DNA of 64,000 nt from Cinnamomum chago (lineage: Eukaryota; Streptophyta; Magnoliopsida; Laurales; Lauraceae): the NCBI GenBank assembly GCA_038049695.1, contig CP142455.1:31099501-31163500 (forward strand), in the 5' to 3' direction. Both the position numbers and the translations under genes were made by a program. Positions 8,190-54,537 of this stretch are shown one piece after another. The notes beneath the pieces are model-generated. The model ran no database searches and was not told where the DNA came from. It worked only from the letters and a program-made list of their open reading frames with translations. Each line of letters begins with the position of its first letter. The first letter of the stretch is position 1.

Positions 8190-8345
8190 TAAATATCGAC
8201 CGATACGAAGCGTTTCGGCCGATATATCGGGCGTGGCGGTACCACAAAGTATTTATCGGCCGCCACGGGATATCGCACCCGTGGCGGCCCGTATCGGCCG
8301 ATACATGCCGCCACGCTACGTGGCGGCCGATACGACATGGGGGGG
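8190..8345. repeat. Left subterminal palindromic repeats, outer hAT
   Basis: A GC-rich patch in AT-rich surroundings, built from variants of GTATCGGCCGATAC and GTGGCGGCC in both orientations. In hAT elements such subterminal motifs are transposase binding sites; that role here is inferred. Confidence 0.8.
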
Positions 8346-22469: not shown

Positions 22470-22822
22470 GCCTCACAGTCGTGTCTTGGGGCCTTGGGTC
22501 TAACCAAAGGATTACTTGGACGAGCACACACCCATTTCTTAGATAACTAATAACAAAAATTTCCACGAAGGAAGCAGGCAAATATCATGACCTCCAAGAA
22601 CTGCATGCACGTGTTGCCCTATGAATCTTTTTTAATGTTTCTTATCTAACTAAACCCTATCTTTAATTCTAACCATCAATTAAATTCTTTTCTATTATTA
22701 TCAATTGGAGGATTTTATTTAATAGTGTTGGGCAGTTTAGGGTCTTTTATGTAAATAACGGTAAATACATGGTCCTTTATTGCAAATACTCAAAATATGA
22801 TATATTAATGGGACGTTCTATT
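22470..22822. other. No gene seen
   Basis: AT-rich spacer between two mobile elements, with no coding frame or clear repeat. Confidence 0.4.
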
Positions 22823-23675
22823 GGCACACAATTTTTCTCTCTTCCCCCACACATTTAAAAAAAAAAACCATGTGAAATTACCTTTTTGCCCACCCTCTAC
22901 CTTTTTCTCTCCCCACCTCCCCTTGACCTCCAGCTCCGGCCTGGACCGGCGCCGGCCGGTCCCTCTCCTCTCCCTCCCCACTATTTTCTCTCTCTCCTCC
23001 TCCCTTTCTTTCCTCCCACCCTCTCCCTCTCCACTGTTTCTCCCTCCCCATCTCTCTCCATCTCCTTCTTTCTCTCCCTTCTCCCCATCTCTCCCTCTCC
23101 CTTAATTTCCCTGGCCGGTGGCAGATCGGATAGCCGGGCGATTGCAATGATCACTAGGTTGCCCGATCTGCCGCTGGCCAGGGAAAGGAAGGGAGAGGGA
23201 GAGACGGGGAGAAGGGAGAGAGATAAGGCGGGAGAGACAGGGAGAAGGGGGAGGGAGAGAGTGGGAGAAGGGGGAGAGAAAACAGTGGGGCAGGGAGAGG
23301 GAGTGGGAGAGAAGAAAACAACAGGGGAGGAAGAGGGAGAGAAGGGGAGGAGAGGGATCGGCTGGTGCTCGCCCATCTAGGCGGAGCCAGAGGTGAAGGG
23401 GAAGGTGGGGGGAGAGAAATGGAGGAGGAAAGAGAGAAAACAGTGGGGAGGGAGAGGGAGAGGGAGAGAGGGAGGGAGAGAGAAAACAGTGGGGAGGGAG
23501 GAAGGGAGGGAGGAGAGGAAGAGAGAAGGGGAGGAAAGGGATCGGTTGGCGCCGGAGGTGAAAGGGGGAGTGGGGAGAGAGAAAGGGAAATGGTGGGCGA
23601 AAAGGTAATTTCACAGGGGGATTTTTTTTTTTTTTTAAAATGTATGTGTGGGAAGAGAAAATGTATGTGTGGGTC
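22823..23675. mobile_element. Fold-back element, purine/pyrimidine-biased arms
   Basis: Two long arms in inverted orientation. Outer parts match (left CACACATTTAAAA...GTGAAATTACCTTTTTGCCC; right GGCGAAAAGGTAATTTCAC...TTTTAAAATGTATGTGTG). The centre is a near-perfect hairpin, 23109-23129 against 23163-23183 (CCCTGGCC...GCAGATCGG). The left arm is CT-rich and the right arm GA-rich and longer, with repeated GAAAACAGTGGG units. No target duplication could be fixed, so the outer limits are approximate. Likely a fold-back or MITE-type DNA transposon; open frames here are low-complexity artefacts. Confidence 0.75.
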
Positions 23676-23801
23676 GACAACTCCTCTCTTTCTCTCATAT
23701 TCTTTTCTTTTCTTCTCTAGTTTGTCCCTTTTTCTGTTTATTCATAATTTCTTTGTCTTCACCACAAAATCCTTGATCCACAAGAATCTACATATTCAAC
23801 T

Positions 23802-24325
23802 TGGTATTAGAGCATTGCAGATGTAGGGATCTAGTGGACCAGATCTGAAAAAGGAGAAGATTTGGAGGGTTTCTTGCCCCAGCCGAACAGTAGCCTATGT
23901 TTGGCTGCGTCGTTTTTTGCTACAGGTGAGTCGACTACTCTGTTGACTTATGGATTAAAGTTGCTGGAGTGTGTGACAACTATTTGAGTGCTATTAGAAG
24001 AACAGTAATGATGATTGATTGGGGTTATCAATCACTCGACGTGATAAAATCCCTCAAACAATGAGTCTATCCTTTATGAACAAGTCGAGCGTCCCTGGAT
24101 CTGCTCGTCAGAGTTGGTACTGCAGTGGATTGGGGGATTATTATCGGATACACACAATAACTACTCAGATTGGGGGATTATTATCGGATACAGAGAGAAA
24201 GAACAGACACTTGCTCGAAGTCACAAAAGCTCTCGTAATTGAAATGAATGTTCCAAAGTTGTTTCGGTCGGATGGTGTGTTAATAGCAGCATTCTTAATC
24301 AATAGGATACCTTCAAAATAGTACA
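23802..24325 (+). mobile_element. Ty1-copia remnant with primer-binding site
   Basis: TGGTATTAGAGC at 23802-23813 closely matches the copia primer-binding site complementary to initiator Met tRNA, and the sequence before it reads like an LTR 3' end. Downstream, without a gag gene, a short frame ends in ERKNRHLLEV...FLINRIPSK, the part of copia integrase after the DDE core. So most of gag, protease and integrase is deleted. A 24-bp segment beginning GATTGGGGGATTATTATC is duplicated near 24128 and 24170. Dead element. Confidence 0.75.
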
Positions 24326-24925
24326 AAACTTTTAGCTCATTTTCAAAAAAGTAGATGAAGATTTGAATATTATTTTAAGAGTATAATAGTTTTCTATATT
24401 TCTTTCAATCAAGTTCTCATGATAAGAAAAATTGAGCACAAAAATACCCTTATGTCGTTTTTCAAAATTTCCCTTTAATATATCATTTAAGAGAAATGAT
24501 CAAGTCCAACCCAAATAACCTAGTGGGGCCCACTTTAGCAACCTTTATGCACAGATGGTTCAAAAGGGTTTATATGGATTCCAAACGATTGAAAAACTAG
24601 CTTCATTCAATGGTTATGATCATCAAAATCAAGTTGAAATTTGGGCCATGAATAATTTTGGCATCTCCTAGTCGATTGAGCGATCTGAAGGTAACCCACC
24701 ATCAACATTTGACCATGAGGCCCATGAAGTGTTTTTAGGGATGAAAGAAGGTTAAGAAAAGACAAAAAATTCTCATAAGGGTAAATATCTTTTTCCAAAA
24801 AAAATATGAGAAGGACCTGATTGAAAGAAATATGGAATTCTTTTATATTGTTTTGAAATATTCAAATCTTCATGTACTTTTTTAAAAATGAACCATAAGT
24901 TTTACACTTTTTTGAAATTCTCCCT
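24315..24925. mobile_element. MITE-like element with ~150-bp inverted ends
   Basis: The left end (about 24315-24465) and right end (about 24780-24925) are inverted copies; shared blocks include AGATGAAGATTTGAATATT, ATATTTCTTTCAATCA and ACCCTTATG. Its left border touches the copia integrase fragment. Target duplications are not clear, so superfamily is open (a Mutator-type end is possible). Confidence 0.65.
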
Positions 24926-25094
24926 TTATTTATTTATTATTTTTAGCCACATATATCTACTTATGCAGGCACCCCTGTCCTTTGGTTAAGACAATGTGCA
25001 ACTTCATCCATGAAAGAGATATAGACTGGTAAAGGGTCAAGGTCCTAACAGATTTCTAATAAGGAATTCAATGGAAACTTATAAATAGATCCAA

Positions 25095-26340
25095 GAGGAT
25101 TTTACGGGAAAAGTCCCGAAATATAGCCATATATCCCAAAAGGTCCTCGCAAATTGTGTAGCACCAATGAGGTCACTCAAGCCTTATTTCCTTTTTTTTT
25201 TTCAACTTTGCTAGCGTCGCTCGTCAATGTCTAGCGCCGCTCGTCAGCGCATCTCCTAATGTACAATTTGCTAGTGGGGGAGATGGAGAAATATACATAA
25301 TTTGCTATATCGTCACTCGTCAGTCTCACTTGGCTTCCAATTTTAGGGAGGCAGCAAGAAAATTCCTTCTGGCTCTTAGTAGTTCTACTACATGTGAGAT
25401 TGTACTTTAAGCTAATTTTAGAAATAATCACTTGATTGCAGTCCTCACGATGCACAATTCCAACACAACTGCCCCAGTCATCCATAACAGGAACTGCAGC
25501 ATCCCTATAGAAACGCATCACCGCTTTCTTCAAGTCCAAGCTAACTTGCAAGGGACTAGCTTCTTTAAACAATGTCATATACTTCTCAAATGGATCGCCC
25601 AATGATACCTAATTGATAAGAGATACTAAGAAACATTGAGGAGAAGAACAACAACAAAGTATGAAGCAAAAAAGAAGCAGATGAGACACCTGAGGGAGTA
25701 GGTAAGGACAAAACAGTGAGCCGTTGAATCCAGATAAAGCCTCGATGCGTACAACAATCTGCAGCACAGTGACGCATAAATAAACTCATGCGGCCTATTT
25801 TAAATATGTAAAATATAAGAATGCAATGGGATGCAGATAATTTATCTTCCATTATGTGTTATTTATTAATAAATGGCATAGACAAGCAACAATACAAGAC
25901 GCAGCACTGGAGCCCACTTTCAGTATATAATTTATTCATTCAATGTTTTCTAGCATGTAATGGACCACTTAATATCTTCCCCACTAAAACACTCTACCCA
26001 CATAATTGACAATTACACTAAATAACCCAAATTTAACTGGGGCAAAAGGGTAGAACCAAGAATATAAACAGTCATGGCTCATCATGTTCTGACGAGTGAC
26101 GATATAGCAAATTGTGTATATTTCTCTAGCTCCCCTACTAGCAAATTGTGTATAAGGAGATGCGCTGACGAGCGACGCTAGTGTCGCCCTCATCAGACAC
26201 GAGCGACACTAGCGTCGCTCCTATCAAAGTTGAAAAAAAAGAAGGAAACAAGGCTTGACGGACCTCATTGGTGCTACACAGTTTGCAAGGACCTTTCGGG
26301 ATATATGGCTATACTTCGGGATTTTTCCCGTAAAATCCTC
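25095..26340 (-). mobile_element. Pack-MULE carrying CBS/PPR gene fragments
   Basis: Perfect 9-bp duplication TAGATCCAA at 25086-25094 and 26341-26349. The ends are perfect inverted GAGGATTTTACGGG / CCCGTAAAATCCTC and extend into long terminal repeats: 25095-25323 (229 bp) and 26089-26340 (252 bp). The size difference is mainly a block of GCGACGCTAG/GTGTCGCTCGT palindromes near the inner side. Long inverted repeats with a 9-bp duplication define Mutator-like elements. The interior (25324-26088) lacks a transposase and instead carries exons of a host gene with their intron, the definition of a Pack-MULE. The element would need a MULE transposase in trans; the broken one at 26-2877 is not shown to be related. 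Confidence 0.93.
25432..25758 (-). pseudogene. Captured exons of a CBS-domain/PPR protein gene
   Basis: Two exons read on the minus strand. Exon at 25758-25690 (23 codons, ends FCPYLLPQ) follows an acceptor CTGCAG; an 81-bp GT/AG intron follows; exon at 25608-25432 (59 codons) begins VSLGDPFEKYMTLFKEA and includes the CBS-domain signature AVPVMDDWGSCVGIVHR. This closely resembles plant proteins with PPR repeats followed by a CBS pair (Arabidopsis CBSPPR1 type), recalled rather than searched. The PPR part and the second half of the CBS region are absent. Because the intron is retained, capture was from genomic DNA. Both exons are open, but no complete protein can be made. Confidence 0.75.
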
Positions 26341-26349
26341 TAGATCCAA

Positions 26350-27255
26350 TCAACCACAACCACATAAGAAGAAGCACAATTTTTTAATATGAAAAACTCA
26401 AATGGGGAAGACCACGAGACTTATACCCAATCCAAGGAAAAACCAAGCACTAATAACTTTGAACAGTTACAAGATATACTCACAGACCATTCCCCAATTG
26501 AAGTCAACCTAAAGGACTGTAGTTCTTCTTGCGATGACTCGCCGTTCACTGTTTGCCTGTGCTTGAACCAGCAACCCACCTTGATGCCTCTCAAGATGCT
26601 TCGATCAACAATGAAAGAGTAGAAGAACTTCTTCTTGAAGTAGCAGCACCAAACTCTCAAGAATTCTCTCGAAGGATGCACTAGGTTTTGGATGGAAGAG
26701 AGAGTTCTAGGGCTGCTCAGGAAGTGTTTTTATTGCCTAGAATTCCTGCATAGGGTTTCCAAGTTCAATTGGAACTCAAACAGATAGGAGAGAAAAAATA
26801 GGTAGGGTTTCTGAGAATCCGAACTGACCGGGCAACATTCGCGAAGTTAGGTCGACCCAAAATATGGTTGGGTCGACCGAACATTGATTCTGTCTCAAAA
26901 CCTAGAGACAAACTGTCCACTAGCTTGACCGAAGCCTGATCTCGCTCGACCCAGACTGGGTTCTGTCTCGAGCATGCGGCTACTTGATTGTGGAGCTTCG
27001 AAATTTTCTGTTTTTCTTTCTCCAATCTCCATGATGACCAACCACTACAGTCCAAAACTAAAAATACAAAATTACCATTCTATTTGGAGATGAGTTTTGT
27101 CCCGAAACCAAGAATTGCCCACCAAAAAACTAACAATCCACAATGATGTTACCGCTCTCTTTTCTTCATGTGATGACTGGTTCTTTTAATGTAAATAAGA
27201 AATATACGGTGAATACTTCTTTAAGTTATTGTGCAATATTCTTTTCTCATATATG
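26350..27255. other. Unassigned sequence, possible LTR material
   Basis: No recognised gene. A frame at 26389-26622 is open for 77 codons but matches nothing known to me. From about 26840 to 26960 there are GGTCGACC-type palindromic motifs similar in style to those in the LTR sequences at 32.9 and 59.5 kb. Confidence 0.35.
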
Positions 27256-27258
27256 CAG

Positions 27259-28135
27259 CCTACATGTTATGTACTTACATGAAGCACTGTTTATTCAGTA
27301 GTTGCTCTGTGGGTGGTCATGTATCCAATGATGAAATTGAACAGACAATAATGGACCTTGAAACAGGAGACTTTTGTAAGGATAGTCAATGTGAATTTTG
27401 GTGATTTTCCTTCGCTAGTCACCCTTTTTTAATGGTCTTACAATAAAATATTTAAAATTGCCTGACCATCCATGTGGGTCCTGCTAGCGTTCTGTGACGG
27501 AGAGGATAATTCTGACTTTCTGTGCAGCCCTCTCTTCTATCATCTGGTGCGATATTTTTTCCATGTGGAAAAGAAAAGAATGAATTGATTTTCCCCGATA
27601 AAGAGGACTTCAATTTTCTATGGGAGGGGTGGGAGTGCAGTGTTCACTCTCCTGTAGAATTGGAAATCTTGTTTCTCAGACTGACTGTTAATATATTTGT
27701 GTAGCGTGTGTTACTAGTCTACAGGGTCCAAGCTTAGTAACATTTTCCTTAATCCTAGTCCTCGCATGATTGACTTCGTCTTGATGACAATGATTTGTCC
27801 AGGTAACTAACTCAGATGAAGTGATCCAGAACTCACAATTGATAGATTGCTATCACACCTTGAATGTGGATGGGAAGACGTTTAGAAAGGTATCAAGAGA
27901 ACAATTTGATCAGGTAGCTGATATTGTTGCCATTGTGCGACAATATGCATTGATACCCGAAGAAGAGGCAACAAGTCTGTGTTGTATGGTCTCCAATACC
28001 TGCATAAAACCCTTGACGCTGCCATACCTACGACATGTCCCTGCCATGCCCAGGCCAGGAATCATAGATCATGAGAAAGCCTGTATCCAAGACTTCCTGG
28101 CATCTTGGAGAAAATGCAAGGATTCTTCTTCTTGA
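27259..28135 (+). CDS. 3' exons of an unidentified gene
   Basis: Two stretches look like real exons. The first (about 27259-27375) follows an acceptor TATGCAG and encodes CSVGGHVSNDEIEQTIMDLE, ending before GTAAGG. The last (27804-28135) follows TTTGTCCAG and encodes a well-composed 110-residue C-terminus with DCYHTLNVDGKTF, EEATSLCCMVSN and TLPYLRHVPAMPRPGI, ending in a stop. Between them another short exon may lie near 27520-27690. I do not recognise the family; there is no signal peptide or membrane segment. It lies on the same strand as the RsmB-like exons but does not fit the rest of that protein. The copia element sits about 450 bp past the stop. Confidence 0.45.
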
Positions 28136-28260
28136 TTCCCTATGAATCTTAGCCCTTGGAAGAAGGCCTCCCATCAAAAGGTACACACTGACATGTATTT
28201 ACATGATAAAGATGTCTTTTACTTTGCTGTAACAATAGTTATTTATATGCTATGTTACAA

Positions 28261-28447
28261 ATTTCCCAGCAAATCTTTAAATCATCTTACATTTAGATAA
28301 AAACAGTTTAATTTTTCATGAGCACATAAAGCAGTTTCATGTATTATGAAATGTTATGAATTTCCCAGCCAATCTCTAAATCATCTTACATTTAGAGAAA
28401 AATAGTTTAATTTTTCTTGAGCACATAAAGCAGTTTCATGTATTATT
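28261..28447. repeat. ~99-bp tandem duplication
   Basis: Two adjacent units (from 28261 and 28360), each with ATTTCCCAGC, ATCATCTTACATTTAGA and GCACATAAAGCAGTTTCATG. Lies in the likely 3' untranslated or downstream region of the preceding gene. Confidence 0.9.
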
Positions 28448-28582
28448 TTGTTTATTTGTGTATATACCATTATAGAATGATGGTGAAAAGTTATGAGTAT
28501 ATATGACCATGCTGAAAACTGATATTGACTTTCATAATAATCAGGAGGATGATATTCCTGAGACTTGTAGTTACACACTTTT

Positions 28583-29381
28583 TGTTGGTCTCTTAGTGCT
28601 TTAAAGAACTTTATTATAAGTGTTTTGGTTTTCTCTTTATTGTTTAGAGTCCCACATCAGTTGTGGAGAACTCTCTTAGAGTCATTTTTTAATGTTTACA
28701 CACATCACTATGGTGTAAGTCTCAGAGAGAAGACCTAGGTAGTGGTGCCCACTGCCCACATACTTCCCACACACGTGCGCGCCGTCTGTGGCAAGGCGGG
28801 CCGAGCGTTGCATTGCGTGGCGGGCAGGCCCGTCCTACATGTGCTTGCATTATTTTTAGGTCTTAGTTGGGTTGGATTTGGGTTGACTTGGATTTGACCC
28901 AGATCTGCGAGGCCTAGTAGCTCTTGTGTCCGTTAGAGACGGCTTTTCCTCTTTAAAGCGGAATAATAGCTACCCGTTGGGATATCCGTTGCGTAAGCCA
29001 GGTATCCATTGAGCATTGTTAATGTGCGTATCCGTTGGGAATTAAATCCCCACCGGATCCTTACCAAGGAAACCCCTATATCAAGGATATCCGGGTAGGG
29101 ACCTTCTCATCCCTTTCTTCTCCTTCTCTCCTTCTAGTTTCATTCGAGTTCTTTTCATAGCTGCTACACGACTATGATTTCGGGGATTCTAGATTCTCAT
29201 CCATTCGAGTGCACGAGTGGTGGAGATCCATTTGCACTTGTGTGGGGGTGAAATCTGCCTAAAGAAAGCGTTTCTAAAGACGTGATTCGGCTACCATATT
29301 GTTCAGTCAATTCTTTCTTTTACTTATTTTCTAATTTTTTTTAATTTATTTACAATTTCCGCAAAACATTTTTTTCCAACA
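28583..29381 (+). repeat. 5' LTR of the copia element
   Basis: Starts TGTTGG and ends CCAACA. Shares with the 3' LTR stretches such as GAGTCCCACATCAGTTGTGG and AGAAAGCGTTTCTAAAGAC. Confidence 0.93.
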
Positions 29382-29532
29382 GTTTAGGTATATTTTTTGC
29401 GGTCAAATTGTTCATAAATTAAAATGACTGCTCGGGAATATTACCCTAAGGTTTTCAGTTTTGAGGGTAAGGACTTCAACATGTGGAGAATGAAAATGGT
29501 GCATCTCCTCAAGGTTATGAAAACTCTATATG

Positions 29533-30041
29533 TAGAGCTGTCAAAATGCCATATGACCCGTTAACACGACACGAACCCACTCGATATTAACGTGTTTGGG
29601 TTGTTAACGGGTCAAACCCGTTAACACATTAAGTTAGCGGGTCGTGTATGAATTAAACCAGTAACCCGTTAACAACCCACTTAACCCATTAAAATTTTTT
29701 TAGTCCCTAAGTGTAGCTAGAATTAATTTATATTCATAATGAAGACATTGAAATTTATTGTTTTATAGTGGGGTTTTAGGTGGGATTCACTCGAGATCCT
29801 CACTTACAGTTTCATGTGGCTTATATATTTTTGTATGGATTTTCTTTCAATTTTTTAAATAACTTAATTACTTATGGGTTAACAGGTTGGGTCGTGTAAC
29901 CTCTTAAATTAACGGGTCGTGTTCGGGTTGGATTTTTTGACCCGTTAAAGTTAACGGGTCATGTACGGGTTGAGGTGATTTTAACACGAATTCGTTAACC
30001 AGTAACCCGAATTCGTTAACACGACACGATTGATAGCCCTA
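29533..30041. mobile_element. hAT-type MITE (509 bp) in copia gag
   Basis: Perfect 8-bp duplication TCTATATG (29525-29532 and 30042-30049). Ends TAGAGCTGTCAA and TTGATAGCCCTA are inverted copies with two mismatches. Subterminal regions are dense in GGGTTAACGGGT-type palindromic units on both strands. No coding sequence. Ends differ from the CATGG hAT family at 8-22 kb, so this is a different family. Confidence 0.93.
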
Positions 30042-31354
30042 TCTATATGTGCTATTAATTGATTGTCCTAAATCATATGGAGATGGGCCCGCTGGTACCT
30101 ATGAAAATGAAAAATGGAAATCCGATGATTTTGATTGCAAAAATGAGATTTTGAACCATTTAGATAATTCGTTATATGGCATATTTTCTAAATTGAAAAC
30201 CGCCTAGGAATTATGGGATGCCTTAATAAAAGAGTATGCTACTAAGGATACGGGTACCAAAAAGTATGCTATTGAACAATTTTTGAACTTTCAAATGAAA
30301 GAAGGAAAGTCAATGATAGCACAAGTTAGAGATTAACATAAAATAATTCATAAAGTCCAAAATGAAGGAATGGAATTACCTGAACAATTTGTAGTTGGCA
30401 ATACCATTCATAAACTCCCACCATCATGGAATTGAGGACTTTGGGATCTTGAAACACAAGAAAAATGAGATGACATTTGAAGATTTCATAGTCCAACTCA
30501 GAATCCAAGAACATCATCGGGATTGTGATTCTAAGAGTCAGGATTCTGAGCATGTGGGTAAGGCCAATCTTATTGAGGCAAAAAATGATTAGAGGAAGCC
30601 CAAGCCCAAGCCCAAGCCCAATTCTTTTCAGGGGAAATTCCAGAAGAAAAAATCGGAACCAAGCCCTTAAGCTCCGCAAGGATATTGCCAAGAGAAAAGA
30701 TGCAGAATATTTTATCTGCGAAAAAAGGGCCACTATGCAAAGGAATGTCGCTATAGGAAAAACATTAAAGGCAAATATCGTGTCAATCTTGTGGAAGAAA
30801 ATCTTATGGCTGTAGTGAGAGGTGAACTTGGTCAGCAATTATAGAGATTGGTGGGTTGACCCAGGCGTAACCTGGCACATCTGTAATGACCGAAGTGCGT
30901 TCGTCTCCTATGGGCAAGTTGGAGATTGACAAGAGCTCTACATGGGTAACTCCTCTACGGCCAAAGTAATTAATCAGGGGAAAGTCATTCTGCACCTCTC
31001 ATCTGGCAAGTGTCTGACTTTGACGGAAGTGCTCCACATGCCCGAAGTGCGGAAGAACTTGGTTTCTAGTTCGGTGTTGAGCAAAAATGGGTTCCAATTA
31101 GTCTTTGAGGCAAATAAATTTGTTGTTACCAAAAATGGAGTGTTTGTAGGGAAATGCTACATATCCGAAGGCCTTTTCAAGCTGAACGTAAATACTATTG
31201 GTAATAAAATTGCCTCTTATTCTGCTTATATTATTGTGTCTCTTGATTTATGGCATGCTATATTAGGACATGTAAATTATTCATATTTGAAAAACATGAT
31301 GGACTTAGGGATGATTTCAAACTAAATTCTTGTGAAATTTGTGTTCAATCAGAG

Positions 31355-34216
31355 TGTCACATCCCGGTCCCGAATCACCCTGGCCTAGGGTAATCCCCGA
31401 GATGTGTCACACGTACTCCCATGTACTATACCTGTCCCGAGCCAAATACAACACACGAAGGAGAGAAAACAACTTCCCACACACGTGAGTTAGAACTCAC
31501 TAAAACACATTAAAGCAATTAATTATAGCGGAAGCAGTAGTTCATTCATGTGAGGTATCAAATTCCCATTCAGTCCATTTAATATTTCAAGTTAATACAA
31601 AAGAATTATACGAATATATACACTGTTTTACAAAAGATGTATAAAGAACCCTATACAATGACACTACCAAAAGTATCAACAAAAGAATAATTAACCTAAG
31701 TGTGGCCCACACAAAAAGGGGCTAGCCACACCCACAAGAGTTCTCCAAAAGATGATTTCGCTCTCTGGGAAAGACAGATCTATTTGGCCTCAGGCTCTGG
31801 CCACTCCTCTAATCCTGAAGGTACCTTTGAGGTAACCTTCTCTCCCTTCTTGGTCTCCTGAGGACCGAGGGCTGGACCTGTGACTGTGACACCAAGAGTA
31901 GTATCATCACTACGATGAATGAGCAAGTATAGGCAATAATAAGGAAATACATAATGTATCAAGTTGAATTTAAGACGGATAAATTAATAGATGTCAACGA
32001 TAAGTATTAACTAGGCAAGTTGTGCAAAAATGAGTAATTCATGCATTGTTAATCAAGTATAATGAAAACATACAAATTGGCTACTGCCTTAAGCTCATCC
32101 TCTTAAATGAGAGCGAATCTAGTTTGGATGTCACCAGCAGCCCGGCCAAGGTTAGCTGGCTACTCGGGTCTGGAGTTCCCGTGCTCCAGATGACTTACTA
32201 CAGTAGTCTTCGAATAACTAAACCGAGTTTAACCCCGTCAAGTATCACAAGGTTGAAGCTAAGTAGTGCTGACTCGATCGAATCAAGTAATAATCGAATA
32301 AAAATAGGATTTGAGTAAGTTGATATTTCACTTATCTATAATCAAATCGAATATTAGTCACATTTTTCGCGAATACTTACTCAATCCACATTTCTAATGA
32401 ATACAAGTTCTAGTATATAATGCTTACAATATGAATTAAATGTAAACAATCGAATTTCAATGGACATCTCGAACACTAGTGATATAATAAATCTATAGAT
32501 CAGAATTGATTGTCAATAAAATTATGCTCCAATATGAAATGCAGTAACTCAAAGGAATCAAGGTATTTTACGAACTAATATTAAACTATTAGTTATAGTC
32601 TCCAATACGAGGTACGTTTAGAGAAATCAACGCATTACTACCTTATTGGTGTTACATGTATGGAAAATACGTAGAATTTCCCAAACTAACCTCCATGGCA
32701 TAGTGTTGGACTAATGAGTAACCATTGGCCAATTATTAAGATTGACGGTTCCATTTTAGGGTCGTAAAGTATCAAGATTTCTAAATTCGTATGGGATAAG
32801 GGTAAGCACCCTAATTATCAATTTGGACACTGAAGATGGGTTAAAATAGGTTGAGGATGACAATTCACCCTAAACTTGGGTCGGAAGAGGCCCAGTTGAC
32901 AGCGTCAGGTTCGCTCGAGCGGACCCTATCCAGAAGGTGGGTCGCTCGCGCGCTACACTTCGTTCGCTTGAGCGAGGGTTCCAGAGAGATGGTCGCTCGA
33001 GCGGACCAATGTTCGCTCGACCAGACCCATCCAGAGAGGTAGACGATCGAGCGATCTCTTTGTTCGCTCAACCCTTAGCTTCAGAAAGGGGTTCGCTCGA
33101 GCGAAGTGTCCAGTTCGCTCAAGCGAAGTGTCCAGTTCGCTCAAGCGAACTGTCCAGAAATCCTGCTTCAAGATTTCTCTTCTATTATTTCTTCCATTCA
33201 TTCTCATATCCTTCCATCATTAAACCTGCACAAGCAAATGGAGCCTTCATGCTCCCATTCCCCACATAACACCATTCAATCCATCATTTATATTTCATCA
33301 AAATTATAAGACACAAGAATCCATTCATTTATTGAGAAATAAATCATGAAAAGAATTTCTTTGGAATCGATGGCAATAAGTCATCATATAAATCCATATT
33401 AAAGCTTATACTTGCCTCTATTAAGCTTTTCTAAACTTTCTCACACACTTGACCTTAGAAAATCCAAAAGCCCCAATCTACCAAACCCTAGAGCCACAAA
33501 TACATATGAAGAATAGCATGAATAGATATGCATGATTACTTTAGAGTCTTTTGACTCCCTACAACATAAAAACATACATCCAAAGAGGTTTTTGGCTCTA
33601 ACCTTAACAAGGAGCCCAAATGTGAGAATGGTGGAAGGGGATGGAGCTGACTTCTAGTTTCACAAGGAGATAGGAAGGTGAAGATGAAGAAGATGAAGAG
33701 CTTCTCTAGCTCCCAAGACACTTGCACTTACTCTAGTAGTGATTGAAAGGAAGAGAAGAAGAGGAGAGGAAGAGTAGAGAGAAAGAGATGGAAAGGAATG
33801 AAAGAGGAAGGGTTGAGTCTTATATAAGGATAAAGTTAACATTTTTGCAAGAAGGTCCACTGACATTGTATATTCTCATTTTGAGTCCAATGGGGGTCCA
33901 AATATTCAACGGTTGGTCAAATGAAGTAGTGCCAAACATGAAAATCGACACACTCGTCGAAATACATGCGGTGACGCCAATATGACGTGCAGACTATGAA
34001 AAATGCAAAAACTCATATTTACGAAAAAGGCCTTTGACTCAACTCAATTGAGTCAACTTGGTTCCCACTCACCTATTTAGGGTTCAAGACTCAACTAACT
34101 CAGTCTATAAGGGTTAATAAACACTAAATAGCATAGTTAGCAATTAAACACCATTAATTTGGCTAAAACACAATTAATTAGTGCTAATCAAGATTAAATC
34201 GGGTCGGGGTGTAACA
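31355..34216 (+). mobile_element. Solo LTR (~2.9 kb) inside copia integrase
   Basis: Perfect 5-bp duplication CAGAG (31350-31354 and 34217-34221); element begins TGTCACATCCCGG and ends GGGGTGTAACA. No polyprotein, primer site or internal LTR pair is visible, so it is read as a solo LTR left by recombination. A TATA-like TATATAAGG near 33822 preceded by a GA-rich block and followed by about 390 bp to the end fits a plus-strand LTR promoter. Length and end sequence suggest a Ty3-gypsy (Tekay-like) family; this is inference. Confidence 0.82.
32905..33165. repeat. TTCGCTCGAGCGAA palindrome cluster
   Basis: About ten variants of TTCGCTCGAGCGAA, several separated by (G)TGTCCAG or CCAGAGAG, within the solo LTR upstream of its TATA-like box. 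The last copies, near 33091-33150, are spaced about 26 bp apart. Confidence 0.9.
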
Positions 34217-37185
34217 CAGAGTTTTCAAGAAAACCTTTCAAAAGTGTTGAAAGATGTTCTGAACTTCTAGGTTTGATCTATAGTGATATTTGTGAATTAA
34301 ATAATATTATCACTAGAGGTGGTAACAAATATTTTGTAACTTTTATCAATGATTTTTTCCATATTTTCTTGTTCATATTTACTTAAAAACAAATCCAAGT
34401 CTCTTGAAAAATTCAACTTTTCCGTATTGAAGTTGAAAACCAATTAAGGAAAAAGGTTTAGACTTTGAGGTCTGATAGAGGAGGTGAATACCTCACCAAT
34501 GAGTTTGTACAGACCTGTAAAACCCTAGGTATAGCACATGAAGTGACAACCCACGACAAAATGGTGTGGCTGAAAGGAAAAATAGAGTCCTAGTGGAAAT
34601 GGTAAATTCCATGTTGAATAGTTCTGGCCTACCCAAGAACTTGTGGGGGGGAGCTCTCCTTACAGCATGTCACATTCTGATCAGGATACCCTTTAAAAGG
34701 ACTAATGAAACTCCTTATGAGTTATGGAAAGGTAGAACCCCTAACTTAGAATACCTAAAAGTGTGGGGGTGCTTAGCCCATATGGTTGTACCTGGCCCTA
34801 CAAGGACCAAACTTGGACCCAACACCCAAGAGAGTGTTTTCATAGGATATGCTCTCCATAGTAAGACATATAGGTTCCTTATTATCTCTGGACAAGATAA
34901 AGACTCCATCATTGGGTCCAGAGATGCAGTTTTCTTTGAAGATTACTTTCCTTTCAAACAAGCTTTATCTAGTTATTGTAGTAGACCAACCCAAGTTGTT
35001 GAGTCTGAATTTGATGACTTAGTAGCTATTGAACCCTATAGGAGTAAGACATCTAGAAATGAATCTATCTTTGGACCTGATTTTCTAACTTATATTTTGG
35101 TAAACGACCCCACAACCTATCAAGAGGCCCTTAATAGTGAGATAGAATCTATCTTATCCAACCACACTTGGGAACTTATAGATCTTCCTCCGGTCACTAA
35201 ACCTTTGGGTTGCAAATGGATTTTCAAAAAGTAGTTAAGGACTAATGGGTCTATAGAAAAATTCAAAACTAGATTGGTTGCAAAGGGATTCAAACAGAAA
35301 GAAGCGTTAGATTATTTTGATACATATGCACCAGTAACTAGGATCACGACCATCAGAGTCTTGATAGCTATAGCTTCCATCCATAAAATGGTTATCCATC
35401 AAATGGATGTAAAAACTCCATTCTTAAACGGTGATTTAGAAGAAGAAATTTATATGGAGCAACACGAAGGATTTATTGCACTGGGGAAAGAGAACAACGT
35501 TTGTAGATTAATTAAATCCCTCTATGGTCTAGAACAAGCCCCTAAGCAGCGGCATGAGAAATTTGACCATGTTTTGTTAAACGATTGTATTAAAATAAAT
35601 GAGTTAGACAAGTGTGTCTATTTTAAACTCATTGGTAGTTCATGCATCATTATTTATTTATATGTTGATGATTTGCTTATTTTCGGTATTGATTTAAATT
35701 TAGTAGAGAACTCTAAGAAACTTCTATTTTCTAAGTTTGACATGAAGGATATGGGTGAGGCTGATGTGATACTTGGGATAAAAATACATGAACACTCTGA
35801 AGGAATTATTTTATCTCAGCCTCACTACATTGAGGAAGTACTTAAGAGATTTAACATGTTTGGAGGGAATGGTGTTTCCACTCCTTTTGATCCAAATGTC
35901 AAATTAACTAAGAACAAAGGAGATAGTGTATCTTAATTAGATTATTCCAGAGCTATTGGATGTTTAATGTAGATTACGAACTGTAATAGACCTGACATAG
36001 CTTATTCAGTAAGAAAGTTGACCAGGCATACAAGCAATCCCAACAGTGAGCACTGGACGGTTGTTATCCGGGTATTTAAATATCTGATGAGAACCATTGA
36101 CTGTGGTTTGCATTATGAGAGATACCCCTCGGTACTAGAAGGGTATTGCGATGTTAACTGGATATCGGACTCGAAAAAATCCAAGCCACGAGCGGCTATG
36201 TGTTACTTTAGGAAATGCAATCATCTCTTGGAAATCTAAGAAGCAAACATGTATATCCCGATCCACAATCGACTTGGAGATCATTGGCATGGTGTTAGCT
36301 CAAGAAGAAGCAGAATGGTTGAAGAATCTATCGGCCGGCATTCCCTTGTGGTATAAGCCAGTACCAGCCATATCTCTCCATAGCGACTCAAGGTCTGCAA
36401 TAGAAAAGATAAGTAACAAGACCTGTAATGGTAAATCCAAACATATTCATCTAAGGCACAATTTGTTGAGACAATTACTCAAGCAAGGAGTGATTGCAAT
36501 TGATTTTGTGAGATCGATTGATAATTTAGCCGATCCACTAACTAAGGGACTCGTTAGAGAGCGAGTAACCTCTACATTGAGGGGAATGGGACTTGAGCCT
36601 AAAAAGGACAAGTCACCAATAATGGACACCCAACCCGTTTGATTGGAGATCCCATGTGACGGGTTCAATGGGAAAAACGAAGTTATCTTTGGGTGGCAAA
36701 GGCTGGACATTTCAAAATTCTCATTACTTGTGTATATATCCATTCCTATGGTGTGAAATGTTCATATCTTGTATATTAGCCGGTGATACTCTGTTTTTTA
36801 TAAGCAGGGTGTTGTACAGGAGCAACCTTGATAGAGAACACCTATATGAGTGTGGAAGTCAGGCTGCTTCTAATGAGAGGATTAGGCTACTCTCTAGAGC
36901 ACTCATAAATATCGGGATAGCACAAGGCTGTTAATGTGCACGGTTCTATAGGAATCCCTGATTTCTAAGACTGCATGTGTAATAAGTACTATTTACTAAA
37001 TGAACTCTTGGTTCAAGATCCTAGTTCACCAATCACGATAGAGTTTTGGTATTTCAAAATTAATACACTACATAAAGGTTCAAAACTTAGTTCACCTACA
37101 CTTTTGCATAGTCTCTCGGCTTTTCTTGCAGCAACAACTTTTCATTTTCAATACTTTCTTTTCAGTGCTTTAATATGTGGGGGAT

Positions 37186-38015
37186 TATTGGTTTCTTAGT
37201 GCATTAAAGCACTTTATTTTAAGTGTTTTGGTTTTCTCTTTATTGTGTAGAGTCCCACATCAGTTGTGGAGAACCCACTTAGAGTCATTTATTAATCTTT
37301 ACACACATCACTATAGTGTAAGTCTTGAGAGAAGGCTTAGGTAGCGGTGTCCACACACTTCCCACACACTCGTGCTCCGTCCGGCCATGCTTGCGTTGCG
37401 TGGCAGGCGAGCCCGGCTAGGCCCGCATGCGGGTGCATTATTTTTAGGTCTCAGTTGGGTTGGGTTTGGGCCGACCTAGATTTGACCTGTATCTGCGAAG
37501 CCTAGTAGCTCTTGTGTCCGTTAAAAACAGCTTTTCCGCTTCTCTTTAAAGCGGAATAATTGCTACCCATTGGGATATCTGTTGCGCAAGCAAGGGTATC
37601 CATTGAGCATGTTAATGTGCATATCTGTTGAGAATTAACTCCCCAACGGATCCTTAGCTGGGAAACCCGTCTATAAGGGACGTCCGGGTTAGGACCTGCT
37701 CATCCCTTTCTCCTCCTTCTCTCCTTCTAGTTTCATTTGAGTTCTTTTCAAAGCTGCTACAAGACTATGATTTTGGGGATTTGAGATTCTTATCCATTGG
37801 AGTGCACGAGTGGTGGAGATAGTCCGATCAGGAAGTCGTCTTATCTTGGGTCAGACGTCTGGAAATGCATTTTCACTTGTGTGGGGTTGAAATCTACCTA
37901 AAGAAAGCGTTTCTAAAGACATAATTCGGCTACCATATTGTTCGGTCAATTCTTTCCTTATTTATTTTCTTTTTTTTTTTTTTTTTTAAATTACCGTGAA
38001 ACATTTTTTCCAACA
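37186..38015 (+). repeat. 3' LTR of the copia element
   Basis: Starts TATTGG (first dinucleotide changed from TG) and ends CCAACA. About 30 bp longer than the 5' LTR, largely through an extra segment near 37820-37862 that is absent from the 5' copy. Confidence 0.92.
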
Positions 38016-38020
38016 CTTTT

Positions 38021-50962: not shown

Positions 50963-51024
50963 CCAAGTGATTCTTCTCCTTAAATCTCATCACCTCATCA
51001 GTGTTGCTTGAAACCTATATCCAT

Positions 51025-54000
51025 ATGAGAGCACTACTGATGGATCACCTCAACTCCTTCCCTTTTACTAAAACCTCTTGTTGTTTCCTCCTCTCTCTTA
51101 TTGCCTTTTCGCTGCAGCTGCTTATGCTCTTTGAAACCACGCTCTCCTTTTCCTTCATTGGGAGTCACAACAGTTCTTCATCAAGCTGCCTTCATCATGA
51201 GAAGTTTGCCTTGCTTCAACTCAAGCATGGATTTTTCATAAAGCCCGCCCGCTATAATTCTTCTTCAAAGCTCGATTCTTGGAATCCAGCCACAGATTGT
51301 TGCTCTTGGGATGGCATCACGTGCGATGAGGCCACGGGTCACGTGATTGGGCTTGATCTCTATGAGACTAGTGTTTGGATTGAAGGTCAAATAGACTCTA
51401 GCCTCTTCAACCTTCGCAGCCTCCAAAAACTCAACCTTTCTTTGAACAACTTCTATCCTCACCCAATTCCCTCTGGGCTGGGCCACCTCTCCAATTTAAC
51501 CCATCTGAACCTCTCATTATCAAAGTTTACTGGCCAAATCCCATTCGAAATATCAAGATTGACCAAGCTTGTTTCCCTGGATCTCTCTTCAAGCTACCTA
51601 AAGCTCAAAAACCCAAACCTTACAACAGTCATTGGAAACTTATCCAGCCTCCAAGAACTCTTTCTTGACGGGGTAAACATCTCGGAGGAGCATGGTGGCA
51701 AGTGGGCTCAAGCCATATCCATCTCAATGCCTAATCTTCAGAGGTTGAGCTTACAATATTGTGGTCTTCAAGGACCCATTGATCCATCTCTTTTTCGGAT
51801 TCCTGGTCTATCTCAACTCTCATTGGATGGAAACAATCTCTCCTCCATTGATGTACCTAATTTCTTGGGTGTCTCATCTGCTTTGACATCTCTCACCCTT
51901 GAAGACTGTGGTTTGTATGGAAAAATTTCTGAGAGTATTTTCTTGATGCCAAATCTACAAAAACTTGACATTTCAAACAATCCACATCTCACCATTGATT
52001 TTTCAGAATTTCCTCAAAACAAAGCTTTGCAGAGCTTGTTCCTGGGAAACACTATCTTTCATGAGAAACTATTGAATTCCATCAACAATCTCAAGTTCTT
52101 AAAGGAATTATCGGCTTGGACTTGCAATATCTCAAGTTCATTACCTTCTTCAATTGCAAACCTCACCCAACTTGAGTACTTGGACCTTTCATCAAATAAC
52201 TTCGGTGGTATGGTTCCTTCTTCATTCTCAAACCTCACCCAACTTGAGCACTTGGACCTTTCATCAAATAACTTCGGTGGTATGGTTCCTTCTTCATTCT
52301 CAAACCTCACCCAACTTGAGCACTTGGACCTTTCATCAAATAACTTCGGTGGTATGGTTCCTTCTTCATTCTCAAACCTCACCCAACTTGAGCACTTGGA
52401 CCTTTCATCAAATAACTTCGGTGGTATGGTTCCTTCTTCATTCTCAAACCTCACCCAACTTGAGCACTTGGACCTTTCATCAAATAACTTCAGTGGTATG
52501 GTTCCTTCTTCAATTTCAAACCTCACCCGACTTGAGTACTTAGACCTTTCATCAAATAACTTCAGTGGTACGATTCTTTCTTCAATTGCAAACCTCACCC
52601 AACTTGAGAACTTGGATCTTTCATCAAATAACTTCAGTGGTACAATTCCTTCATCCTATGGAGATAAGCTCAAACATCTCTTTCATTTTTCTCTGCATAA
52701 TAATTCACTTGAGGGTTCTATCCCGTCATCTCTGTTTTCTCACCCAACATTGCAATACTTGGATCTCTCTTACAACCAATTTAGTGGTTACCTTCCCGAC
52801 TCTCATAATGAATCATCCTCAATGCTGGAGGAGATCTACTTGGAGAACAACAAATTGCAAGGGACAATTCCTAGGCTGGTTTTTGAACTCACGAAGCTAC
52901 AATCTCTTTCCCTGTCTAACAACAACTTCAGTGGCACTATAGGACTAGAAATGTTCAAAAACTTCAAAAACATCAGTGAATTTCCAGACATCCTTAAAAA
53001 TCTCACTCGACTGCAGTATTTGGATTTGTCGAAAAATAAAATACATGGTGAAATACCCACGTGGATTTGGGAGGTAGGAAATGGGAGTTTGTATCATCTT
53101 AATCTTTCTAACAACTTCTTTGAGAGCTTTGAGCATCCATTGCCTGAGTTTTCATCAAGTAGTTTAGAAATTATTGACCTTCATTCCAACAGATTGCAAG
53201 GGTCGCTTCCAATCCTACCACATCAAGTTTACTTTCATGACTATTCAAATAACAATTTCTCCTCCATCATTCCAGCCACTATAAACTTCACTTCCACTCA
53301 CTACTTTTTTCTTTCAGGCAATAATGTCAGCGGAGAAATTCCTTCATCAATTTGTAAAGCACGCTTCCTTGAAGTCCTTGATCTGTCTAGAAACAACTTT
53401 AGTGGAAAAATTCCTACTTGTCTCGGTAAAATTGGCAATTCCCTCAAGATTTTGAATTTGCAAAGAAATGCTTTTCAAGGCAATGTGCCTAACACTTTTA
53501 AAAAAGAGTGTGGTCTGAGGACACTCAATCTTGATAGCAATGAACTAGAAGGGCCAATACCGAAGTCATTAGCCAATTGCAAAACATTGGAGGTTATAGA
53601 CATGGGAAACAATCGTCTAAATGATACCTTCCCATTCTGGTTTGATAGTTTATTGGATTTACGTATTTTGATCTTACGATCCAACAAATTTCATGGTCCC
53701 ATTGCTCATTTCCATGCCAAAAATTCCTCATTCCAATTTCTGCAAATCTTTGACATTTCTTCCAATTATTTTGTGGGTATTATTCCTCCAAATTTTTTTC
53801 TAAATTGGGAATTGATGGCAGGAGAAGGTGGTTTAAATTCAAGTTCCAATGTCCAAGTTGTTAAGTACAAAACAAGTTTTGGACTTTACTATCAAGATTC
53901 AGTGATGGTGACGATGAAAGGGCTTGAACTAGAGGTCGTTAAGATCATCACTGCGTTAACCTCAGTTGATCTTTCAAACAATAGATTTGAGGGGGAGATT

Positions 54001-54537
54001 CCTAAATCAATTTGCAATCTCAAGTCACTCCATGTGCTCAACTTCTCACAAAATGGCTTCGATGGCTCAATTCCAGCATCTTTGGAGAATTTAACACAGC
54101 TTGAGTCATTAGATCTTTCAAGGAATAAGTTATCAGGGAATATCCCTTGGCAATTGACGAAGCTCACATTTCTTGCAGTCTTGAATCTCTCAGAAAATCT
54201 CCTCTATGGAAGAATACCACAAAGCCAACAGTTCCTCACATTTACCAATAGTTCTTTCCTTGGGAACATTGATTTATGTGGATTTCCACTATCAACAAAA
54301 TGTGAGGATACTGTGGCTACATCACCATCAACCTTTAGTAGTTTTGGCTTGGATGGAGTAGGAGAAATTGATTTGGAATTCATGTGGATGGGATTTGGAA
54401 TTGGAGTTGCATTTGGGTTCGGAGTGATCTTCTGGACTCTGGCACTATGGAGGAGAGGAAGTAGAAAATACATGCAACTCATTGATAGAATGTTTGTTCA
54501 TAATTTTTCAATGATTGCATCATATGTACACCGGTAA
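51025..54537 (+). CDS. LRR receptor-like protein (RLP, Cf/Ve type)
   Basis: A single-exon gene of 1170 aa from the ATG at 51025 (a second in-frame ATG at 51040 is also possible; both keep the signal peptide). A hydrophobic signal (SCCFLLSLIAFSLQLL) is followed by the LRR N-cap (CLHHEKFALLQLK; CCSWDGITC), about 30 LRRs of the plant extracellular type (LxLSxNNFxGxxP), a non-LRR island ending YYQDSVMVTMKGLELE, four last LRRs, a C-cap (GNIDLCGFPLS), an acidic spacer, a transmembrane helix with GxxxG spacing (MGFGIGVAFGFGVIF) and a short basic tail without a kinase. Such proteins sense pathogen or developmental signals at the plasma membrane and signal through SOBIR1/BAK1-type kinases (family knowledge). 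Seven consecutive 24-residue repeats at 52162-52665 are almost identical, so ligand range cannot be inferred. No stop or frameshift; likely functional. Confidence 0.95.
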   Translation: MRALLMDHLNSFPFTKTSCCFLLSLIAFSLQLLMLFETTLSFSFIGSHNSSSSSCLHHEKFALLQLKHGFFIKPARYNSSSKLDSWNPATDCCSWDGITCDEATGHVIGLDLYETSVWIEGQIDSSLFNLRSLQKLNLSLNNFYPHPIPSGLGHLSNLTHLNLSLSKFTGQIPFEISRLTKLVSLDLSSSYLKLKNPNLTTVIGNLSSLQELFLDGVNISEEHGGKWAQAISISMPNLQRLSLQYCGLQGPIDPSLFRIPGLSQLSLDGNNLSSIDVPNFLGVSSALTSLTLEDCGLYGKISESIFLMPNLQKLDISNNPHLTIDFSEFPQNKALQSLFLGNTIFHEKLLNSINNLKFLKELSAWTCNISSSLPSSIANLTQLEYLDLSSNNFGGMVPSSFSNLTQLEHLDLSSNNFGGMVPSSFSNLTQLEHLDLSSNNFGGMVPSSFSNLTQLEHLDLSSNNFGGMVPSSFSNLTQLEHLDLSSNNFSGMVPSSISNLTRLEYLDLSSNNFSGTILSSIANLTQLENLDLSSNNFSGTIPSSYGDKLKHLFHFSLHNNSLEGSIPSSLFSHPTLQYLDLSYNQFSGYLPDSHNESSSMLEEIYLENNKLQGTIPRLVFELTKLQSLSLSNNNFSGTIGLEMFKNFKNISEFPDILKNLTRLQYLDLSKNKIHGEIPTWIWEVGNGSLYHLNLSNNFFESFEHPLPEFSSSSLEIIDLHSNRLQGSLPILPHQVYFHDYSNNNFSSIIPATINFTSTHYFFLSGNNVSGEIPSSICKARFLEVLDLSRNNFSGKIPTCLGKIGNSLKILNLQRNAFQGNVPNTFKKECGLRTLNLDSNELEGPIPKSLANCKTLEVIDMGNNRLNDTFPFWFDSLLDLRILILRSNKFHGPIAHFHAKNSSFQFLQIFDISSNYFVGIIPPNFFLNWELMAGEGGLNSSSNVQVVKYKTSFGLYYQDSVMVTMKGLELEVVKIITALTSVDLSNNRFEGEIPKSICNLKSLHVLNFSQNGFDGSIPASLENLTQLESLDLSRNKLSGNIPWQLTKLTFLAVLNLSENLLYGRIPQSQQFLTFTNSSFLGNIDLCGFPLSTKCEDTVATSPSTFSSFGLDGVGEIDLEFMWMGFGIGVAFGFGVIFWTLALWRRGSRKYMQLIDRMFVHNFSMIASYVHR
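52162..52665 (+). repeat. 72-bp tandem array coding 24-aa LRRs
   Basis: Seven in-register 72-bp units (starts 52162, 52234, 52306, 52378, 52450, 52522, 52594). Units 1-4 differ by only a base or two; the last three diverge (GGT to AGT in FGG/FSG, SF to SI). Recent unequal exchange is the simplest source. Confidence 0.97.

Follow-up and report, generated by a model that had tools for sequence, protein, structure and literature searches.

The window analyzed here, a stretch of 64,000 bp (C5:31099501-31163500) from a genome searched over 1.06 Gb in 14 contigs, contains at 25095-26340 a complete Pack-MULE of 1,246 bp. It is almost certain that this non-autonomous Mutator-like transposon captured a genomic piece of a PPR-CBS gene, spread with it, and then carried it into decay. 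As far as sequence comparison goes, the contiguous capture of 765 bp and the presence of the unit formed by the terminal inverted repeats (TIRs) and the cargo at many sites with different target site duplications (TSDs) are both shown.

The element ends exactly at 25095 and 26340, with GAGGATTTTACGGG at each end. Its TIRs pair with 209 identities over 229 aligned columns (20 mismatches), plus 23 gap columns that sit where the right TIR has a 31-bp tandem repeat; this repeat is the reason why the right TIR (252 bp) is longer than the left one (229 bp). An earlier note, made from the letters of this DNA, had claimed that both ends, the inverted repeats and a perfect 9-bp duplication were visible, and all of these are borne out. 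The features, in window coordinates, are the following.

25086 to 25094, unstranded: left TSD, TAGATCCAA, also found at the segmental duplicate C5:31270526-31271810
25095 to 25323, plus strand: left TIR, 229 bp, also the end of other elements of the genome
25321 to 25431, minus strand: cargo, aligning with the beginning of the intron after exon B in the parent, its first 3 bases common with the TIR
25432 to 25608, minus strand: cargo exon B (177 bp), encoding part of a CBS domain
25609 to 25689, minus strand: cargo intron, 81 bp, GT...AG
25690 to 25758, minus strand: cargo exon A, 69 bp
25759 to 26085, minus strand: cargo, aligning with the end of the intron before exon A in the parent
26084 to 26340, minus strand: right TIR, paired with the left one over 252 bp (26089-26340)
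26168 to 26226, unstranded: 31-bp tandem repeat inside the right TIR
26341 to 26349, unstranded: right TSD, TAGATCCAA, a perfect 9-bp match to the left one

The five extra inner bases of the right TIR (26084-26088) are common to elements with other cargo. These run from AACAT into different sequence, which places the inner edge of the right TIR independently. Inverted pairs of exact 14-mers, at most 10 kb apart, number 289 in the window, and a single one of them, the Pack-MULE, has a perfect 9-bp TSD; there was none across 50 dinucleotide shuffles of the window, pooled. Adjoining the Pack-MULE is another inverted-repeat element (24312-24940), with relatives at ~71-83% in dozens of places among the best 40 of 1425 candidates scored.

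Helitrons are not known to have TIRs or TSDs. Gene capture is known in several transposon superfamilies (PMC8903248; this and the other papers are cited here from excerpts), and another TIR superfamily or a Helitron could have carried the fragment, but this is highly unlikely, as TIRs above 200 bp and a 9-bp TSD fit the definition of MULEs, with TSDs of 9-11 bp and TIRs of 100-500 bp (PMC3310237). The match to the MULE features in that source extends to the non-autonomous nature of the element and to its gene fragment. More broadly, the Pack-MULEs of rice, maize, Arabidopsis and tomato have long TIRs, a 9-bp TSD, no transposase and a gene fragment, as here. In tomato, their sizes peak at 1,000-1,200 and at 1,300-1,400 bp (PMC3310237), and the 1,246 bp of this element fall between the two. 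Rice and maize Pack-MULEs favor GC-rich donors (PMC3310237, PMC4858842), whereas the cargo described here is not GC-rich (44-47% in exons, 33-36% in intron pieces). Our literature search for "Pack-MULE" together with "magnoliid" found nothing, and neither did a search for words of the cargo peptide.

Where does the cargo come from? The genome search revealed a single locus, C2:4301168-4301933, with a match to the cargo but to no part of the TIRs. It covers element positions 227-991 only, at 94% and with two gaps, in a single run that takes in the two exons, the intron of 81 bp and the intron pieces on either side. What the element holds is 765 bp of continuous genomic DNA: the end of an intron, an exon, the 81-bp intron, an exon, and the start of the next intron. 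Since introns and exons lie in one alignment to the parent, it was DNA that was captured, as the earlier note had proposed, and not a spliced message. Together, the TIRs and the parental DNA cover element positions 1-1246, and there is no transposase inside. In the 40 kb around the parent, no TIR match was longer than 25 bp or had an E value below 0.018, the best having 19 bp and an E value of 0.018.

Read along the minus strand, the cargo has an exon of 69 bp (25758-25690), the intron of 81 bp (25689-25609) and an exon of 177 bp (25608-25432), and the exon borders, inner and outer, are AG/GT. The open frame of the window element encodes 125 aa, a length reached by 45 of 1000 shuffles, and the one confined to the cargo 95 aa, reached by 111 of 1000, so that the length of the frames is by itself weak evidence for a gene piece. 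Exon B has similarity to CBS domains (E value of 1.6e-4 in PDB and of 0.025 in Pfam, the latter below the curated cut-off). It is this similarity, and above all the parent gene, that identifies the cargo as a piece of a gene. An AlphaFold model of exon B alone had a pLDDT of 58 and was set aside. Viral contigs provided no relatives of exon B among 32 stretches matching the peptide pattern; their one exact 18-mer match was taken as chance.

The parent locus has, on the same strand, ORFs with PPR repeats upstream (PPR_2, E value of 1.6e-15) and a further CBS piece downstream, and the CBS matches among the parent exons have E values of 7e-4 and 4e-3, with scores under the Pfam cut-off of 24 bits. 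By their position, as ORFs of the same locus and strand, the PPR and CBS parts would make one gene. This agrees with the earlier reading of the cargo as exons of a CBS/PPR gene with their 81-bp intron. In the parent, an ORF of 223 aa (L011:3501-4169, minus strand) separates PPR from CBS exons; we take it to be copia-gag-like, and it suggests a retroelement in an intron. The parent differs from the majority of the element family at 5 of 246 exon sites and at 21 of 515 intron sites (1 of 81 in the 81-bp intron); few exon differences relative to introns are expected if the gene itself is constrained. A protein search with exon B found 23 loci, i.e., the parent and 22 elements, the parent being the one locus of the 23 that lies outside an element. 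PPR-CBS genes are single in Arabidopsis and in rice (PMC2694836). In the account of that source, AtCBSPPR1 (At5g10690) and its single rice counterpart combine a PPR motif with a CBS domain, like the parent here, and this architecture suggests that the parent and AtCBSPPR1 are orthologs.

The exons could instead belong to a resident, working CBS-PPR gene with the inverted repeats merely alongside, as might be thought from the open exons and intact splice sites of the window copy. Yet among the ORFs that flank the element between 24.6 and 28.1 kb, the five tested (a subset of the frames) had no PPR or CBS match, the gene that does have PPR exons lies on a different chromosome and lacks TIRs, as the search for the parent proposed in the earlier note revealed, and the TIR-cargo-TIR unit is repeated at 17 loci. 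The copies in the genome refute the idea, whose probability we consider practically nil.

The Pack-MULE is real, but it does not stand alone: it is one of at least 23 element loci with the same cargo among the best 40 of 393 DNA-search candidates scored, namely, the 22 elements with exon B and one (L043) that keeps part of the cargo only. Nearly all of them have the same joins between TIRs and cargo. Using probes with up to 5 mismatches in 24, we found the left join (TIR ...GTCAG, of which CAG is common with the parent, a 3-bp overlap) in 20 of the 23 loci; for the right join (TIR ...GTCAGAACAT, of which AT is common with the parent, a 2-bp overlap) the count was 22. Neither probe matched the parent (7 mismatches) or the 14 loci with other cargo (at least 8). 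The left join is missing from L029, L042 and L043 and the right one from L040, all four truncated or rearranged, and the left join of L023 is partly deleted. Capture may have occurred by DNA repair or template switching at the 2-3-bp overlaps, although overlaps this short can be due to chance.

Both ends are present, without interruption, in 17 loci. Taking the best TSD of 8-11 bp with shifts of up to 3, a perfect 9-bp TSD was found in 11 of them, in 10 distinct sequences, one of them common to the window copy and its nearest relative (L012). The others have a perfect TSD of 8 bp (one locus), a 9-bp TSD with one mismatch (three) or a T-rich TSD of 10-11 bp with one mismatch (two). L041, which keeps both ends but is interrupted and has an A-run as TSD, is outside the 17. 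Ten different perfect TSDs around the same TIR-cargo-TIR arrangement imply that it transposed as a unit, and the check for other elements with these ends, proposed earlier, turned up many, each with its own TSD.

The copy closest to that of the window, L012 (C5:31270526-31271810), lies 146 kb away and has the same TSD and flanks, with identities of 95.8 and 98.8% over 400 bp and of 97% over 5 kb to the right, while the two cargos differ by 2.8%. The identical TSD and similar flanks rule out an independent transposition; judging from them, the two copies are one insertion, duplicated with its surroundings. The segmental duplication (22579-31340 and C5:31268053-31276811) is 92-97% identical over the stretches compared and carries the Pack-MULE and part of an LTR element. 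At 28582-38019, direct repeats (28582-29385 and 37185-38019, 84-87%) flank copia-type pol-like ORFs in what looks like, and we presume to be, an old LTR retrotransposon.

The tree and the counts of divergence used 18 of the 23 loci, as the truncated or interrupted L029, L040, L041, L042 and L043 were dropped. The tree of these 18 copies and the parent is star-like, with end branches of median 0.031 and a parent end branch of 0.027. Together with the common joins, this suggests one capture followed by a burst, and the star-like shape and short parent branch suggest that the two were close in time. None of the forks has good support and the tree places the parent next to L023 (81/85); there may therefore have been another source of cargo or later conversion. 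Captured fragments are commonly amplified: 36% of rice Pack-MULEs (481/1337) are multi-copy, as cited in PMC8277862, and in the tomato family PM-ZIBP a fragment of one gene was amplified to 14 copies (PMC3310237). In that family, 13 of the 14 have tandem TIRs, according to the same excerpts, unlike the element described here; each of its 17 two-ended loci has exactly two occurrences of the outer 115 bp of the TIR.

The same TIRs delimit 14 more loci (L044-L057), with two groups of interiors, X and Y. Interior X was found in 10 elements and in one broken-up match without TIRs (C11:51620098-51621891), and interior Y also has a TIR-free match (C3:100177936-100178396). The matches to the interiors of the two sibling groups (L068:4098-5892 and L069:4936-5817) are likely to be donors, or else old copies without their ends. 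None of six ORFs near these sources had a Pfam match.

Movement of the family would have depended on a transposase encoded elsewhere; the analysis found none framed by these TIRs. The window itself has MULE transposase ORFs (MULE, DBD_Tnp_Mut and SWIM domains) on the minus strand at 26-2877, in two overlapping frames. They are probably not the partner, as no TIR of the Pack-MULE family is found in the 20 kb around. Inverted matches of 33 bp, partly palindromic, lie on either side of them (about -1014 and 3865), and a search for their TSD gave nothing convincing, only flank repeats of 8-9 bp inside the palindrome.

What happened to the gene piece after the burst? Divergence from the column majority of the 18 copies is 4.3% of sites in exons and 2.8-3.2% in intron pieces. 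Much of this gap is due to C/G content, as the differences amount to 7.7% (exons) and 6.1% (introns) per C/G site and to 1.25 and 1.15% per A/T site. Changes of the type C>T/G>A affect 118 of 1025 CHG sites, 25 of 360 CG sites and 149 of 3975 CHH sites, compared with 54 transitions at 8323 A/T sites. Plant transposons carry CHG methylation, and the CHG peak in the mutation pattern, as in methylated transposons, suggests that the copies are methylated. The short burst would have been followed by silencing through DNA methylation and by neutral decay of the gene piece.

The earlier note had remarked that the exons are still open and could give a chimeric or antisense transcript. The exons are indeed open in the window copy, with frame and splice sites intact; across copies there is no coding constraint, and a useful chimeric protein is therefore unlikely. 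Counted per copy, we observed 129 nonsynonymous, 46 synonymous and 15 stop changes, where a base-by-base spectrum that ignores sequence context predicts 112, 48 and 8 without selection; if recurrent changes are counted a single time, the numbers are 86, 32 and 5. The excess of stops is not made of independent events, because 8 of the 12 in-frame stops are at one Trp codon (TGG), by common descent or repeated hits. Stops are found in the exons of 10 of the 18 copies (one via a frameshift), and L020 lost a donor site. A chimeric protein under selection could be argued from the 7 of 18 near-complete copies, the window copy included, that retain an intact frame together with the four splice dinucleotides. 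Against it are the nonsynonymous changes, more numerous than expected without selection, the second codon positions, which change most (5.3%), and the frame of exon A, which in the window copy is closed upstream without an ATG, the first ATG being in exon B. We give this hypothesis very little credit; intron-like divergence and the counts of nonsynonymous and synonymous changes argue against selection on the cargo exons. The gene piece looks decaying, not working.

The cargo could also act on its parent through antisense or small RNA from a transcript driven by the TIRs, and a regulation of parents by Pack-MULEs has been proposed (PMC3310237). Of the 223 24-mers of the parent's spliced exons A and B, the window copy has exact matches to 53, and the 23 element loci taken together have them to 130. 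However, the exons diverge as much as the introns or more, and there was one old burst; this bears more on coding than on small RNA, and we regard such an effect as unlikely. A broader scenario, in which the TIR family captured at least three different stretches, each with its own burst, and now feeds methylation-linked small RNA to the PPR-CBS gene, seems quite improbable to us.

How Pack-MULEs take up sequence was described as not yet understood in 2012 (PMC3310237) and as perplexing in 2021 (PMC8277862). Here, the parent, both joins, 23 descendant loci and siblings with other cargo are found in one assembly, and the combination of parent, joins and descendants allows the joins and the later decay to be read directly. 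This makes a useful worked case rather than a surprise: the element is of a known kind and well preserved. Elsewhere in the window, an LRR receptor-like ORF (50971-54534; LRR_1, E value of 6.7e-82) includes in its coding frame 6.9 tandem copies of a 72-bp unit with 95% match (52144-52642), an array suggestive of the recent multiplication of one leucine-rich repeat.
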